IMG/VR virus record: IMGVR_UViG_3300050139_000064
Location: 1-32,364 of that record
DNA: 32,364 nt
Origin: a virus
Reading direction: 5' to 3' (one strand)
Position numbers and translations under genes: made by a program. Positions 5,004-31,721 of the stretch are shown here, piece by piece. Position 1 is the stretch's first letter. Each line of letters begins with the position of its first letter. The notes below the pieces were generated by a model. That model was not told the origin of the DNA and ran no database searches. It worked only from the letters and a program-made list of their open reading frames with translations.

Positions 5004-5666
5004 TTATGCTGTTGTACCCTTTGCACCAACGATACCTATGTAATCAGGAGCGAATACTTCCTCTCGGAAGTTTGCCTGATAGAAGTAAGTACGGTTGTTT
5101 GACATTGTCCAATCTCGTAGAGATGTGACAACACCTTGTCGAACGAATCGGCGAACCTGATGTCGAGCGCTATCAAGCAAGAACCATGCTGTGTCTGATC
5201 CAAGACCATCTGGTGAAGCTGTTCCCAACCATACTGATTGGAATACCTTCACTGAGTAATCCATAGAGAAGACGTTAACTGCGTTGGTTCCGTTTTCAGG
5301 AACAAGAGCAGAAACTGCGATTTGTCGAGCTGTGATATACAATGCTGGGGGTACCAATAGGACATCTCCGACACATTGTAGAGGAACACCAGCTTGTGAT
5401 TTCATTTCAGCAAGTCGCTTCATAGCGATGTTGAATGCTGATGTAGTCAAAGCTGTTGATGTTGCACCACTGATGTCAGCAGTAACGACTTCGTTGTTTG
5501 TAGTACCACCACCGATAAGAGTGTGTGATGAACAAAGAGCGGCACCGTCAGCTGTCAAAGTTGTGGTGAAAGCACCTCGGAAAATCTTGAAGGCGTTGAA
5601 ATCTTGAGTTCGGCGAGCCATGATAGCGAAATCGCTAACTTGGTTTTCCCATTCTCCGTGAATATC
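5004..5666 (-). CDS. Major capsid protein, exon 2 (C-terminal 220 residues)
   Basis: Second exon of the MCP. After splicing it begins DIHGEWENQVSDFAIMARRT and continues through AFKIFRGAFTTTLTADGAAL, the conserved stretch of HK97-fold, Mu gpT-like capsid proteins. The first ATG in this piece (5621) is an internal Met, so calling a gene at 5004-5621 would lose 15 residues and hide the split. Start of the exon at 5666 follows from (i) phase with exon 1, (ii) a G as the last intron base at 5667, and (iii) P10 pairing of the first seven exon bases (GATATTC) with GAATATT in the intron guide sequence. The spliced protein is 101 + 220 = 321 aa, normal for this family. Confidence 0.88.
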   Translation of the reverse strand, partial: DIHGEWENQVSDFAIMARRTQDFNAFKIFRGAFTTTLTADGAALCSSHTLIGGGTTNNEVVTADISGATSTALTTSAFNIAMKRLAEMKSQAGVPLQCVGDVLLVPPALYITARQIAVSALVPENGTNAVNVFSMDYSVKVFQSVWLGTASPDGLGSDTAWFLLDSARHQVRRFVRQGVVTSLRDWTMSNNRTYFYQANFREEVFAPDYIGIVGAKGTTA

Positions 5667-6432
5667 CAGAATTTGTTAATCTATCAGGCTCTTTATCCTG
5701 ATCTCATGAACTTGTAAATACTTTTTTGCTTTATCAATAAATCCAGACTCTATTATTCCCAAAACGATATTACATCGTCTGCACAATAGAGCCCTCACCT
5801 TATTTGTTTGATGACAGTGGTCTACGCAAGGAAGTTTATTTATATTAGATGTGTTTTTCTCTAATTCAAACTCGTTTTTGCATATGGCACACTGGTTATT
5901 TTGATCTGCCAACATCTGATTGTATTTTTCCAAAGAGAGACCGTATTTTTTCAAAATAGAATTTTTGAAATTTCTATGTTGGAACTTCTCCTTGTTCGCC
6001 TTGTAATAACTCTTTCTCTTCACCTTTTCCCCCTGAGAATTATTAGTCCAGCGATTATTATGGTATGCCCTACAGGTTTTACAACTTTTATTGAGCTTAC
6101 CATGAAAGTTACCAAATTCGTTAGAATTTTTCTCTTTCTTACAAACAGTGCATTTGATGATTTCCATTCATTCATCATAGCAATCTAGTATTTACTTGTC
6201 AATGTTCAGACTATATCTTCACTCTTTTGAGTGTCGGGCACTCGTGGATGGATTATGTTCTCTTGCGAGGTTCACCATCTAGTCGTTAGAGCGTTAATCT
6301 TTTTTAAAGGATCACTTGCTACGGGATTGTCCATTTCTGAATTTTCCCCGTTTAACCCGATTTACCTTCTACTTCCTAAGCCGCAACGGGAGAACTGAAG
6401 TAGATTGACGACAATATTCGAAACTTACGTTT
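5667..6432 (-). ncRNA. Group I intron (IA-like) interrupting the major capsid gene
   Basis: 766 nt on the minus strand. P1: exon-1 end TTGACGAT pairs with intron GTCGTCAA (plus 6405-6412), with the diagnostic U-G wobble at the 5' splice site. P10: exon-2 start GATATTC pairs with GAATATT (plus 6413-6419), directly 5' of the P1 guide. P2: CTACTTC/GAAGTAG (plus 6369-6375 and 6397-6403). Core: ACGGGGAA ... GGACAATCCCGT (plus 6321-6351), very like the phage td intron P4-P6 segment; R element TAACGACTAGATGG (near 6275-6288); S element GAAGATATAGTCTGAAC (6204-6220). The P7 GACTA/TAGTC pairing is present. The intron ends in G. The endonuclease ORF lies 3' of the catalytic core. Confidence 0.92.
5676..6167 (-). 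CDS. Intron-encoded HNH homing endonuclease, recombination endonuclease VII-like
   Basis: 163 aa. Zinc-binding and catalytic pattern of the endonuclease VII family: an N-terminal CTVCKKEK...CKTCRAYH module (residues 6-35), then CAICKNEF near 93, then CVDHCHQTNKVRALLCRRCN (about 113-132) with the DHCH active-site segment and final C..C. Such enzymes cut intron-less alleles and drive intron homing. The whole ORF lies inside the group I intron and stops 9 nt before the 3' splice site, in the same frame as exon 2. No strong ribosome site is seen (ATGATGAATGAATGG surrounds the start). AT-rich relative to the capsid exons, consistent with a mobile origin. Confidence 0.88.
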   Translation of the reverse strand: MEIIKCTVCKKEKNSNEFGNFHGKLNKSCKTCRAYHNNRWTNNSQGEKVKRKSYYKANKEKFQHRNFKNSILKKYGLSLEKYNQMLADQNNQCAICKNEFELEKNTSNINKLPCVDHCHQTNKVRALLCRRCNIVLGIIESGFIDKAKKYLQVHEIRIKSLID

Positions 6433-6735
6433 ATCGTCAAACAAGTTCTTTGAGATATCAATTCCTTCTGCAAAGTCTGAAATAGTAACAGTCCACTTGT
6501 TTGCAACCTTTGCAACATAAGAAGGAACTGCTTGTACTTCTCCAATCTTTGAGAAGAGTCCTGGACCCTTGTGAATCGTACCAATGTACGCTGCGTGAGT
6601 TGTATCAGTAACCTTGAAGATTTCTCCTGTCAATGCTGTTGCATATGATGGGGGAACTGTAGCTTCGTAAGATTGCTTGAACACTTCATCGAGTTCAGTC
6701 TGGACGAGACTAAAATTTTGTGTTTCTGTAAACAT
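6433..6735 (-). CDS. Major capsid protein, exon 1 (N-terminal 101 residues)
   Basis: First exon of the MCP, from ATG at 6735 to the last base of a GAT codon at 6433. It encodes MFTETQNFSLVQTELDEVFK and ends DISKNLFDD. Homologous Mu gpT-like/HK97-fold capsid proteins continue 'LFDDNMHGEW...'. Joined to exon 2 this gives LFDD-DIHGEWENQV, so the product is uninterrupted. Without splicing, the frame runs into the intron and stops at 6376 after an unrelated KRKFRILSS tail. The gene lies downstream of scaffold and decoration genes, the normal capsid order. Capsid expression, and therefore virion production, depends on splicing. Confidence 0.88.
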
Positions 6736-11789: not shown

Positions 11790-13042
11790 GTAAATTTATT
11801 TAAATTAATCTTACTTCCACCATATGGTCTATGCTGTGTTCCGTAATGCACCTTCGGGGTGGTTGAGGAAGAAGTAAGGTCTGACATGATAACGTAACGC
11901 AGAGCGTCGAGTAGGTGGTCATTCTTCCCGATGGGGAGTTCCGTTGCATTTTTTTCTGGGGACCAGTCAGGATAAGCGTAGGATTCCAACTCTTGAATAA
12001 GGTTAATGCAGGACTTGTGAATAAATAGGCGGTTTGCTTTAAATGCGTCCCTTACATTCTGGATGCCATTAACTATGGAGTTCTTTCCCTTCTTGACATC
12101 CCTGAGATTAATGCCTTTTTTAGCCATGGCACTGATTGCGGACTGGTTCTCAGGATCTGGGAACACCTTATTGAATTTCATTGAGGCGACAGCATCAACA
12201 ACCTGCTCTTCCGTTTGCTCTGTTCTGTACCACTCATTGGAGACATAATATATGTTTTCCATATCTTTCTTGACTGTCACTATGGCCGTGGGATTCCTGT
12301 ATCCAAAGTCTACGCCCCCCAACGTTTCTACGACAAGCTCTGGAAGTTTTTCAATGAGGTGACGGTTACGGTCAAATTCCTTGTAAACTAGGCCTTCCAT
12401 CTTCCTGAAGTCCGCTAAATACTCTTGAGCAAACTTGTCGTCCGTCATTTCCTGTTTGGCCTTTTCTATTTCCTCAACAGGCATGTGAGGATTGTCGTAT
12501 GTCGTAAAGTGGAAGGATTTATAGTCGGAACCCTTGATTGGGTCGTTTTCCATATTATACAACTCGTAGAGCCAGTTAAACCCAGAAGGAGTTCCGATAA
12601 ACAAGACTTCTCCCTTGCGATCTGTTAGGGCTGGTCTAAGAACCTCCTGCCAACTAGTCCAGAAATCACGCATGTTGGAAATTTCGTCCAATACAAGCAT
12701 GTCATATTTTTGCCCTCTCATTGTTTCTACTGACTCCCAGCCGTGAAGAGAGATTTGAGAGGTATTACCAAATCTATTCTTGATAGTAATCTCCAAACGA
12801 GACTCATTAACGTTCTCAGAGAGTTGAGCACAGACTTTCTTTAATTCAGCCCACGCAATATCACGCGCCTGGGCGAACGTTGGTGCCATATAAGTAATAC
12901 GCCCATCATCTGTAGCAACAGCTTTGGCGAACATTTCCCATGCAGACAAAGTCGTTTTCCCGAATCTTCTTCCAGCCACAACAACGCGGTAACGATGTCT
13001 GTCCGTTGCAATGGCACTCTGTGCTGGGGTCAGTTTCATCAT
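11786..13042 (-). CDS. terL: Terminase large subunit
   Basis: 418 aa, the DNA-packaging motor. ATPase domain: Walker A GRRFGKTT at residues 24-31, Walker B MLVLDEIS near 117, coupling segment EVLFIGTPSG near 150. RNase H-like nuclease domain: GVDFGYRNP near 243, FPDPENQSA near 297, and the final acidic site KNDHLLDALRYVI near 374. All three nuclease Asp residues are visible. The start is ATGATG at 13042, overlapping the HNH stop by 4 nt; downstream it overlaps the HExxH gene. Order TerL then portal is standard. Confidence 0.95.
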   Translation of the reverse strand: MMKLTPAQSAIATDRHRYRVVVAGRRFGKTTLSAWEMFAKAVATDDGRITYMAPTFAQARDIAWAELKKVCAQLSENVNESRLEITIKNRFGNTSQISLHGWESVETMRGQKYDMLVLDEISNMRDFWTSWQEVLRPALTDRKGEVLFIGTPSGFNWLYELYNMENDPIKGSDYKSFHFTTYDNPHMPVEEIEKAKQEMTDDKFAQEYLADFRKMEGLVYKEFDRNRHLIEKLPELVVETLGGVDFGYRNPTAIVTVKKDMENIYYVSNEWYRTEQTEEQVVDAVASMKFNKVFPDPENQSAISAMAKKGINLRDVKKGKNSIVNGIQNVRDAFKANRLFIHKSCINLIQELESYAYPDWSPEKNATELPIGKNDHLLDALRYVIMSDLTSSSTTPKVHYGTQHRPYGGSKINLNKFT

Positions 13043-13578
13043 AACTCTAGATGGTTAATGATTCTTTTAAGGTGAAATAGGAACTCTTCGACTGGGTGGT
13101 TCAATTTCATATAATTACAAACCTTGCAACAAGGAACTGAATTCTTCTTGGTATATCCAACAGATGAATCTATTCTATCAATACCTAGAGGATTAGGAAA
13201 ACCACAATAAACACAGGGTTCCTGTATAAAAGCCTCAAATTCTTCTCTTGTAAATTCAAAATCCCAGTTTTTATGCTTTGCCCTTTCGTAGTACCGGTGG
13301 TACTGCTTCATTATGGGATGACCCTGTTTCCATTTCTTGGCTCTTTCTATACAGGATTTACTATTTTTAGAATACCATTCGTTAAAGACCTCTGTTATAT
13401 GGTCAGCTTTTTCTGTTCTCCTTACCTTGTCGTACTCAGACTTTCTTTTTCTGACTTCTGGCTTGGCCCAGTACTTAATAAACGACTCTCTTGCCTTATC
13501 TTTATTGTTTAAATACCACAAATGAGCACGTTGACGCGCCTCTTCTTTCTGTTCATCATTAAGTTGTTTCCTCACCAT
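13039..13578 (-). CDS. Free-standing HNH endonuclease next to TerL
   Basis: 179 aa from ATG at 13578 (MVRKQLNDEQKEEARQRAHL). The C-terminal half holds the HNH/zinc signature: PCVYCGFPNPLGIDRIDSSV, then CCKVCNYMKLNH, two CxxC pairs around the ID-R-ID core. The N-terminal half is Lys/Arg-rich and helical, as in DNA-binding arms of homing nucleases. It overlaps terL by ATGA, so it is embedded in the packaging operon. HNH proteins beside TerL can assist cos cleavage; it may equally be a selfish homing enzyme. A longer start at 13632 would overlap the small basic gene and is less likely. Confidence 0.75.
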   Translation of the reverse strand: MVRKQLNDEQKEEARQRAHLWYLNNKDKARESFIKYWAKPEVRKRKSEYDKVRRTEKADHITEVFNEWYSKNSKSCIERAKKWKQGHPIMKQYHRYYERAKHKNWDFEFTREEFEAFIQEPCVYCGFPNPLGIDRIDSSVGYTKKNSVPCCKVCNYMKLNHPVEEFLFHLKRIINHLEL

Positions 13579-13588
13579 AACTTGAGAG

Positions 13589-13690
13589 TTACTTCTTCTT
13601 AGCAGCAACACCCTTAGCCTTAAGTTCGGCATTAGTAACTTGTGCCTTACCCTTGTTTTCAGCTTGAACGAGCTTTTTTACGCCTGACAT
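13589..13690 (-). CDS. Small basic protein, 33 aa, first gene of packaging operon
   Basis: ATG at 13690 opens MSGVKKLVQAENKGKAQVTN and ends with AAKKK at TAA 13589. It is very Lys/Ala-rich. The extended -10 promoter at 13721 lies about 30 bases upstream, and the HNH ORF follows after 10 nt, so it is the leading cistron. Possible DNA-binding tail or leader peptide. No family is recognised. Confidence 0.55.
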   Translation of the reverse strand: MSGVKKLVQAENKGKAQVTNAELKAKGVAAKKK

Positions 13691-22394: not shown

Positions 22395-23306
22395 ATGAAA
22401 AACCCCCTAAAACAACTTATTAACAGTAACAAGTTCTACTGGGTAAACAGCAACATAGAAAAGAACTTTAAACTAGAAGAAGTTAGAAACACAGATTACA
22501 AACTCTTTCACTTTGATAAGTATGTTTCTTCAAAATATGCTATTAAGGAAATAGAGAATGAAGGATATTGTCCTGCAAACCTAGCAGAATTATTAAACTG
22601 GAAAGATTGGAATAATAAAGATTGGGTAGTAGCTCTTGGCTCAGTCACCGAGATCGGCGGTGGTCGCCGTGTGGCGTACCTCTTCAGGGTCGATTCCGGG
22701 TGTGACCTCGATCTGGGCTGGTTCGACGGTGATTGGGTCGGCGGCTGTCGGTTCCTCGGAGTAAAATCTATAAGTGAATCTAAGAGGGTTGAAATTGAAG
22801 GATTTGACGAATCGTTTATATCTCGCTTTTGGTCGCAAGTCGATAAGACCGATAACTGTTGGAATTGGATTGGGGCTAAACACGAACAAGGATATGGTTT
22901 GATTAAAAGTGGAGAAACGAGTCTTCGTGCTCACAGAATATCGGTGTTAATGTCTGGGAGAGAAATCCCCGACGGATGTAATGTTGACCATCTCTGTAAG
23001 AATACATCTTGTGTTAATCCCGACCATTTAGAAGTTGTTACCCCAAAAGAAAACACATTGCGTGGAGAAGGGATAACTGCTAAAAACGCCAAGAAAACTC
23101 ACTGTGTTCACGGGCACGAGTTTACAGAAGAATCCACTAAGGTTAGAAAAAACGACGACGGTTCAATAAGTCGGGTATGCCTAATGTGTCAACGAAGTCG
23201 CAACTCAACTCTTAAACCCTCTGAAATTAGTTCTGGTCCTTTGACCTTAAAATCTGCTATATCTCTGTGTAAGAAAGAAGGTTATCAGGTAAGTAAAATA
23301 ATGTAA
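22395..23306 (+). CDS. Variable-region protein with in-frame HNH endonuclease domain
   Basis: 303 aa in three parts. Residues 1-123: an AT-rich start followed by VALGSVTEIGGGRRVAYLFR, WFDGDWVGGCRFLGV, a pattern of small CLec-like proteins with variable segments. Residues 138-268: complete HNH endonuclease (FWSQVDKTDNCWNWIGAKHE, GCNVDHLCKNTSCVNPDHLE, and a CVHGHEF/CLMCQ pair). Residues 277-303: SEISSGPLTLKSAISLCKKE and GYQVSKIM, which reads like the normal C-terminus of the first part. So an HNH gene appears to have entered a variable-protein gene in frame. Candidate ligand-binding plus selfish endonuclease. The domain border is my estimate. Confidence 0.6.
   Translation: MKNPLKQLINSNKFYWVNSNIEKNFKLEEVRNTDYKLFHFDKYVSSKYAIKEIENEGYCPANLAELLNWKDWNNKDWVVALGSVTEIGGGRRVAYLFRVDSGCDLDLGWFDGDWVGGCRFLGVKSISESKRVEIEGFDESFISRFWSQVDKTDNCWNWIGAKHEQGYGLIKSGETSLRAHRISVLMSGREIPDGCNVDHLCKNTSCVNPDHLEVVTPKENTLRGEGITAKNAKKTHCVHGHEFTEESTKVRKNDDGSISRVCLMCQRSRNSTLKPSEISSGPLTLKSAISLCKKEGYQVSKIM
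22626..22763 (+). other. Candidate diversity-generating-retroelement variable region
   Basis: Within the 22,395 gene. About 120 bases (22640-22759) are ~65% G+C with ~9% A, while the flanks are AT-rich (~1/3 G+C). Most codons end in C or T and start with any base (GTC, ATC, GGC, GGT, CGC, GAC, GAT, TTC), as when AAC/AAT codons in a template repeat are randomised by adenine mutagenesis. Encodes Gly/Asp/Arg-rich VTEIGGGRRVAYLFRVDSGC and so on. No template repeat or reverse transcriptase is visible in the window, so the copy may be diversified by an element elsewhere or be a fixed relic. Confidence 0.5.
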
Positions 23307-23801: not shown

Positions 23802-24449
23802 ATGAAAAACGATAAATACAAATTAACAAAGGAAAGTATAGAGACGTGGGATGGTAAGTTATTTAGAATTGAAGCTTTAAAAGACTTTGGTGGTGTTTCC
23901 AAGGGTGACAAGGGTGGATTTATTAAATGTGAAGCAAACTTAGATTTTTCTGGTGATGCTTGGGTTTCTGGTAATGCTATGGTTTATGGTAATGCTAGGG
24001 TTTATGATAATGCTTGGGTCTCTGGTGATGCTTGGGTTTATGGTAATGCTAGGGTTTATGATAATGCTTGGGTCTCTGGTGATGCTCAGGTCTATGGTGA
24101 TGCTCAGGTCTATGGTGATGCTCAGGTCTATGGTGATGCTCAGGTCTATGGTGATGCTCAGGTCTCTGGTGATGCTAGGGTCTATGGTGATGCTAGGGTC
24201 TATGGTAATGCTATGGTTTATGGTAATGCTTGGGTCTCTGGTAAATTCTCGCTCACTTGCGGATATTTCTTTGGAATGAAATACAACAATGAAGAAATCA
24301 AAACCTACAAAACCGCAGAGAATGAAGAAATAATCTACAAAGGAACTACCGCCAAGATAGAGCCAACAGAGCCAGAAGTTAAATCTCTAAAGGGTAAAGA
24401 AGTAGAAGTTAAATTAGACGGAGTAAGCTATAAAGCAATAATTCAATAA
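23802..24449 (+). CDS. Left-handed beta-helix hexapeptide-repeat protein
   Basis: 215 aa. Residues 52-147 are sixteen hexapeptides of the type D/N-A-x-V-Y/S-G (DAWVSG, NAMVYG, DAQVYG), predicted to coil into a left-handed parallel beta-helix. The N-terminal ~50 residues (KLFRIEALKDFGGVSKGDKG) and a basic/acidic C-terminus (KSLKGKEVEVKLDGVSYKA) cap it. Similar proteins are widespread in phage genomes and sometimes called polymer-forming; their role is unproven. Repeats are nearly identical at DNA level, pointing to expansion by slippage. Confidence 0.7.
   Translation: MKNDKYKLTKESIETWDGKLFRIEALKDFGGVSKGDKGGFIKCEANLDFSGDAWVSGNAMVYGNARVYDNAWVSGDAWVYGNARVYDNAWVSGDAQVYGDAQVYGDAQVYGDAQVYGDAQVSGDARVYGDARVYGNAMVYGNAWVSGKFSLTCGYFFGMKYNNEEIKTYKTAENEEIIYKGTTAKIEPTEPEVKSLKGKEVEVKLDGVSYKAIIQ
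23955..24242 (+). repeat. Sixteen tandem 18-bp units encoding hexapeptides
   Basis: Units of GGTGATGCTCAGGTCTAT and close variants. Four to five copies in the middle (about 24081-24170) are identical or nearly so, flanked by variants with GGTAATGCTATGGTTTAT. Exact copies suggest recent duplication. The reading frame of the opposite phase is open too but is only a shadow. Confidence 0.85.
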
Positions 24450-30860: not shown

Positions 30861-31721
30861 TCATGAAAACCATCCCCCAATAGCCTGTTTCATGTGGATA
30901 AGTTGTTGTAGTAAGGCAATGATTTTGGTCATCAAAGTTATCTTCTGTTCAGTGATTATTGGGTTCTCTTTATGGTAAATAACACCACCCTTCTCAATGT
31001 TGCCGGACTTAAAGTAGTCTTCAGAGATGTATTGGTAGCCATTTTCACCGACAGAATCGCCCCAAGAGTTGTGGACCTTGATTACTTTCTTACCATTTCT
31101 AAGCATGGCTCCAGTGCAGACCAAAAAGTGTGACCATTTATCACCATTGCCACCAGGGGGAAGGGGATCCGTTGAGTTCCATGTGCCATTGTTCTGTCCA
31201 GCGATCTGCATAATCATGCCGTCATTGTCTCTGATAGCCTGAGCGAATGATTCTATGTCTGTATTAACAAAGGCGTAACCAGTGGCCTCGTAGGGCACGG
31301 CAGAGGCATCTCCAAGGGAATTGAGGGATGTATCATGCATGAATGTCTCCTGTGGAGGGTGGCCATTATCGTATGATGGCACTAACGACTCGTCTGCATC
31401 ACCATGTTTAACGTGAAAATCAAGGACATCCCTGATTGTTGTGCCTCCTTGTGGGTAGAATATTTGTGAGTAGACATACTTAGCTGAACGCTCTGGGGCT
31501 TTATTTATAAGCGAGGAAAGATAGGCACTGGCTTGTCCGCCACAGGAGAACGAACCATTTTGGTCTTTTGTTTTAACTGGGGACAACTCTGAGTCGAAAC
31601 CGACTTCCCAATTAAAGGGAACGGCGGCCATAGCGATGTCTTTGTATTTAAAATCTCTTAAGTCGAGAGGAGATGGAAGGGCGCCGTGGCCGTGCTGATT
31701 TTCAACTAAAGTGTGATTCAT
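30861..31721 (-). CDS. Papain-like (peptidase C1) cysteine protease
   Basis: 286 aa. PVKTKDQNGSFSCGGQASAY contains the catalytic Cys after the oxyanion Gln; NGDKWSHFLVCTGAM has the His; VIKVHNSWGDSVGENGYQYI has the Asn/Trp pair. The order Cys-His-Asn is that of papain. No obvious signal peptide; the last ~25 residues (LMTKIIALLQQLIHMKQAIG) are amphipathic or weakly hydrophobic. It sits in the lysis module. It may degrade a cell-surface or cell-wall peptide, or act in virion entry; a role as proteinaceous endolysin is inferred. Overlaps the upstream gene by ATGA. Confidence 0.75.
   Translation of the reverse strand: MNHTLVENQHGHGALPSPLDLRDFKYKDIAMAAVPFNWEVGFDSELSPVKTKDQNGSFSCGGQASAYLSSLINKAPERSAKYVYSQIFYPQGGTTIRDVLDFHVKHGDADESLVPSYDNGHPPQETFMHDTSLNSLGDASAVPYEATGYAFVNTDIESFAQAIRDNDGMIMQIAGQNNGTWNSTDPLPPGGNGDKWSHFLVCTGAMLRNGKKVIKVHNSWGDSVGENGYQYISEDYFKSGNIEKGGVIYHKENPIITEQKITLMTKIIALLQQLIHMKQAIGGWFS

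Follow-up and report, generated by a model that had tools for sequence, protein, structure and literature searches.

The window (the whole stretch of viral DNA that was analysed, 32,364 nt) carries two open reading frames on the minus strand, at 6735-6376 and 5621-5004, found as the earlier note had described them, and between these lies an insert with an endonuclease-like reading frame of its own. Joining position 6433 to 5666 gave a single open frame of 321 aa (966 nt including the stop codon), and its second part matched the Pfam family Mu-like gpT, the major head subunit of Mu. The spliced 321-aa capsid protein was intact and agreed with those of intronless relatives, whose genes are unsplit, and removal of the insert restored the conserved reading frame, as expected of a group I intron; the view that the two leftward frames are exons of one capsid gene was thus borne out. 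The junction motif LFDD-DIHGEW, previously proposed as a family motif, was uninterrupted in L001 (LFDDDIHGEW) and L002 (LFDDDMHGEW, with M for I). The features of the locus, all on the minus strand, are as follows.

6433-6735: exon 1 of the major capsid gene, codons 1-101, 303 nt, ending LFDD; aligned to the intronless L002, L003 and L005
5667-6432: group I intron, 766 nt
6405-6412: internal guide GTCGTCAA, pairing as P1 with TTGACGAT of exon 1 (6440-6433), 8 bp, U.G at the 5' splice site
6413-6419: GAATATT, pairing as P10 with GATATTC of exon 2 (5666-5660), 7 bp; abuts the guide directly
6369-6403: P2 hairpin, CTACTTC (6403-6397) with GAAGTAG (6375-6369), from the Rfam alignment
6198-6362: catalytic core P3-P8, from Rfam, the R1 model and covariation in nine homologous introns
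P3: TCGGG (6360-6356) with CCCGA (6238-6234)
P4: ACGGG (6351-6347) with CCCGT (6325-6321)
P7: GACTA (6284-6280) with TAGTC (6213-6209)
Extra helix between P7 and P3, as in subgroup IA: GATGG (6279-6275) with CCATC (6251-6247)
P8: CACTC (6233-6229) with GAGTG (6224-6220)
6188-6195: likely 5' strand of P9, GTAAATAC, complementary to GTATTTAC at 5721-5714
5676-6167: intron reading frame, 163 aa, putative homing endonuclease with Endo VII motif; Pfam Endonuclease_7 1.1e-15, PHROG 2914 1.2e-29
5683-5702: 3'-terminal hairpin ATCAGG-ATAAAGAG-CCTGAT, kept in related introns
5004-5666: exon 2 of the major capsid gene, 663 nt, starting DIHGEW; Pfam Mu-like_gpT 7.2e-08

Intron core, splice sites and encoded putative endonuclease

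Scanning with cmscan returned a single Rfam match in the window, to RF00028 at 6407-6185 on the minus strand (50.6 bits, E = 3.4e-10), which covered the full model (1-253) and reached the gathering score of 50, so that the group I check suggested beforehand was passed by 0.6 bits. Moreover, a covariance model built from nine introns of seven relatives with the window left out (R1) scored the window intron at 142.1 bits (E = 5.7e-38), inside the 132-168 bits of its own building introns. The introns of L006 and L007, together with one of the L004 pair, escaped the Rfam search but are found by R1, so Rfam on its own understates this intron family. Helices P3, P4, P7 and P8 were all present, and the P2, R and S elements reported by the earlier note could be located in the Rfam and R1 alignments. 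Among the nine homologous introns, 22 of the 33 predicted pairs covaried, with both sides changed and pairing kept; these counts come from the nine-sequence alignment because, with the window included, MAFFT gave a faulty alignment of the 5' core. Between P7 and P3, GATGG/CCATC and an inner hairpin (6279-6247) correspond to P7.1/P7.2 of subgroup IA, and the outer-helix pairs covary in the homologues. By these extra helices, as predicted from the sequence, the window intron is group IA.

The splice sites had been proposed to the base, and they are indeed fixed at that level because P1 (8 bp with the U.G pair), P10 (7 bp), the final G of the intron and the in-frame join agree. When each G of the intron was tried as the first base of the guide, the best P1 plus P10 combination by far was the 8 bp with the adjoining 7 bp. 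In a control that tried 18,955 T-ending sites of the window as the junction, with pairing to nt 1-70 of the intron, one site reached at least 15 bp of P1 plus P10.

The endonuclease VII-like frame noted inside the intron carries the full DHHRN motif. Residues D116, H117, H119, R125 and N133 and the zinc cysteines C93, C96, C129 and C132 (two CX2C pairs) were invariant in nine aligned intron frames, namely that of the window and eight others; D, H, H, R, N and the cysteine pairs are the defining residues of the DHHRN homing endonucleases, a family that takes its name from F-CphI (PMC6083498). The window protein is 35.5% identical to F-CphI over 150 residues. The frame likely sits in the P9 loop, since the segments at 6195-6188 and 5721-5714 are complementary. 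A search of viral contigs with a single endonuclease protein as query returned one distant relative only.

Several other genes of the window were recorded. A second, free-standing endonuclease gene at 13632-13039 (PHROG endonuclease VII / HNH) has the terminase large subunit gene on one side, whose start it overlaps by 4 nt, and a probable small terminase gene on the other, and R1 detected no intron at 13039-13632. In the product of 22395-23306, an unrelated N-terminal region of ~140 residues precedes a fused HNH_3 endonuclease domain. The product of 23802-24449 is a YdcK-type beta-solenoid repeat protein whose hexapeptide repeats are nearly identical, and that of 30861-31721, close to where the phage record ends, is weakly similar to the papain family (Peptidase C1).

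Intronless relatives, rival explanations and known systems

Capsid relatives were gathered from IMG/VR and genome bins, and uninterrupted capsid genes were found in L002 (81% protein identity), L003 and L005. A comparison with intronless relatives at the LFDD/HGEW site had been called for, and empty sites exist, both in L001, the closest relative of the window, and in L002, its nearest intronless relative, whose capsid DNA is 76% identical. In addition, the intronless L005 and the intron-bearing L007 share 89% nucleotide identity over 936-nt coding sequences, and their alignment is gapless once the L007 intron is taken out, indicating precise insertion in a near relative. No near-isogenic empty allele of the window itself was present among the relatives compared, which was counted against the interpretation. 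Some relatives came from bins labelled Falkowbacteria, Zambryskibacteria, Pacearchaeota and Erysipelotrichaceae, where their contigs may be stray phage contigs.

Considering the covariance model scores, the splice-site pairings, the intact joined protein and the empty sites, the proposal that a group I intron splits the major capsid gene holds, and we regard it as very probable that a mobile group IA intron interrupts this gene after codon 101 and is spliced to leave a 321-aa capsid protein, with endonuclease-driven homing as its probable means of spread. The core, the pairings, the restored frame, the intronless alleles and the intact endonuclease motif are present in the DNA. We infer actual splicing, endonuclease cutting and homing of the window element as follows. 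The capsid pre-mRNA would fold the intron, guanosine would cut after the U of the P1 U.G pair, P10 would then align exon 2, and the terminal G would direct ligation to yield the capsid message. When related phages co-infect, their intronless capsid alleles are probably cut by the Endo VII-motif protein encoded in the P9 loop, and repair of the cut allele would copy the intron in; the distribution of the introns fits such cutting and homing. Dependence of capsid output on RNA folding, as the earlier note suggested, is a reasonable putative consequence.

There is very little chance that the insert is a decayed or non-splicing intron, with the phage defective or its capsid supplied by another gene, a reading to which the narrow Rfam score lends something; the core, P1, P10, terminal G, both exons and the intron frame are all intact, the R1 score falls within the range of the model-building introns, and a search of this record for a second capsid copy found none. 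Slighter still is the probability that a free-standing endonuclease gene was inserted and that the two capsid pieces are made as separate proteins without RNA splicing: exon 2 does offer a possible internal start (ATG at 5621) and the window does hold a free-standing endonuclease gene (13632-13039), but a group I core with covarying pairs lies ahead of the frame, the inner start would lose 15 junction residues (DIHGEWENQVSDFAI), some of them invariant, and relatives have unsplit capsid genes. A group II intron was ruled out by the group I core, an intein by in-frame stop codons inside the insert, and an assembly error by the same layout recurring in independent metagenomes.

The group IA intron of the window resembles that of mycobacteriophage LittleE, which has a ~0.8-kb intron in its major capsid gene with splicing demonstrated by RT-PCR and N-terminal sequencing (PMC3706429). 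In both, U is the last base of exon 1 and G that of the intron, which encodes a putative homing endonuclease, and intronless relatives exist. However, the phage and host group differ, the LittleE intron was called only most likely group I (PMC3706429) whereas the window core is clear, and the LittleE reading frame runs in the opposite direction, while the window endonuclease is of the Endo VII-motif kind. A further precedent, as cited in the literature, is likewise a group I intron of a phage capsid gene. Thus, phage capsid group I introns with endonuclease genes are already known, and the window element is one more. F-CphI of cyanophage S-PM2 works with a group I intron, and intron-encoded members of its family are known from DNA polymerase genes (PMC6083498); it shares the catalytic motif of the window protein, but it is free-standing beside psbA, whereas the window gene lies inside an intron in the capsid gene. 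The group I introns of Bastillevirinae (PMC11878797) are like the window's family in their similar length, in occurring several per gene and in leaving a small exon between two, but they occupy polymerase, terminase and nucleotide-metabolism genes (PMC11878797) rather than capsid genes.

Distribution and probable repeated entry of the intron family

The intron family occurred in nine distinct phages (the window, L001, L004, L006, L007, L020, L028, L043 and L095), and all 13 introns placed lie in capsid codons 7-18 or 92-104. Codon numbers are our own, taken from the joined reading frames and alignment A1, and the splice sites of L004 intron 1 and L043 intron 1 are uncertain to the base.

First stretch, after codon 7: L028
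First stretch, codon 10: L004
First stretch, codon 15: L001, L020, L043
First stretch, codon 18: L004
Second stretch, codon 92: L006
Second stretch, after codon 100: L006, L043, L095
Second stretch, after codon 101: window
Second stretch, codon 103: L007
Second stretch, after codon 104: L095

Both stretches are well conserved in the capsid protein, and the eight further phages splice in silico to capsids of 307-320 aa. About one in six capsid genes bore an intron (~55 compared, each with at least 35% identity). Across 60 loci (650 kb), R1 gave 12 matches, all within the capsid gene by position, two of them in a duplicate contig (L056 = L043). Most loci were fetched by the patterns LFDD[ND][MI]H or GSDTAWF, which biases against, not for, finding introns of the second stretch. 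A DNA search with the intron core gave no match in 50,697 named phage records. The distribution suggests repeated, target-directed invasion of one structural gene.

Somewhat short of an even chance, we consider, is that the confinement to the capsid gene is partly a sampling effect, which concerns the wider pattern and not the window's intron. The relatives were found via the capsid gene, elements in the remaining genes of other phages were covered only in part, and a capsid-independent scan with sequence patterns placed the family also beside a terminase gene (L096) and in a capsid-like gene of unrelated sequence (L093, L094); against this, all 12 R1 hits in eleven relative records (~425 kb, eight records with introns) lay in the capsid gene, and the rest of these records gave none. 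The introns of L093 (4460-5883) and L094 (3190-1367, minus strand) belong to the same family and carry an Endo VII-motif gene. Their host gene, with the product NFFFGEVLGNTEKW..., has no sequence relation to the window's capsid gene and is presumably capsid-like, judging from gene order. At L096 2285-2123 (minus strand), a weaker family member (85 bits) lies at the end of a terminase-large-subunit-like gene.

L006, L043 and L095 share an insertion site 3 nt upstream of that of the window intron, and the junction GAT/GATA is common to the window, L006 and L043, indicating that the element follows nucleotide sequence and not codon position. Moreover, the introns of the window and L001 occupy different sites and carry unrelated reading frames (Endo VII motif versus HNH), yet their cores match at 94% identity over 88 nt, whereas the capsid coding DNA is 74% identical. 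A recent exchange of cores between sites would best explain this identity, although strong constraint on the core would also raise it.

Paired introns were separated by micro-exons in three phages, of 12 nt in L095, 24 nt in L004 and 25 nt in L006, with in silico spliced capsids of 308, 313 and 308 aa, respectively. In the L095 exon (GACAATATGCAT), the first 8 nt pair with intron 1 as P10 and the last 8 nt pair with intron 2 as P1, each over 8 bp; these segments overlap, so the two introns must use common bases in turn. Such an arrangement has precedent in the small exon between two introns of phage phiNIT1 and in the exon skipping of SIOphi and Twort (PMC11878797).

Tentatively, and with the odds slightly against it, these introns may form a clan specialised on major capsid genes, marked by repeated entry at codons 7-18 and 92-104, at least two unrelated endonuclease types, core swapping, and a pile-up that shrinks exons to 12-25 nt whose bases serve P10 and then P1. 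If so, the endonucleases could be capsid-gene weapons between co-infecting phages. A clan of introns that concentrates on a single structural gene, at two hot spots and with micro-exons, was not found described in the open-access literature searched, a body that leaves out most subscription journals. The preference of phage introns for nucleotide-metabolism, polymerase and terminase genes was raised as an open question (PMC11878797); a phage group with all detected introns in a major structural gene is a direct counter-example to that pattern, and its intron-bearing and intronless members make the question of gene preference testable. The family is also an annotation trap, the capsid gene being called as two or three fragments and several introns falling below the Rfam threshold.

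Two variants of intron layout were recorded. At L095 1120-2640, in the first of the two capsid introns, the endonuclease gene comes after the 5' splice site but ahead of the guide. At L043 4544-4810, L093 4520-5350 and L094 3150-2300 (minus strand), the P1 U.G pair and the reading frame imply a last base other than G, the introns ending AACATAATCA or AACATAAT; either another 5' site one base upstream is used, with one residue lost, or the terminal G is missing.
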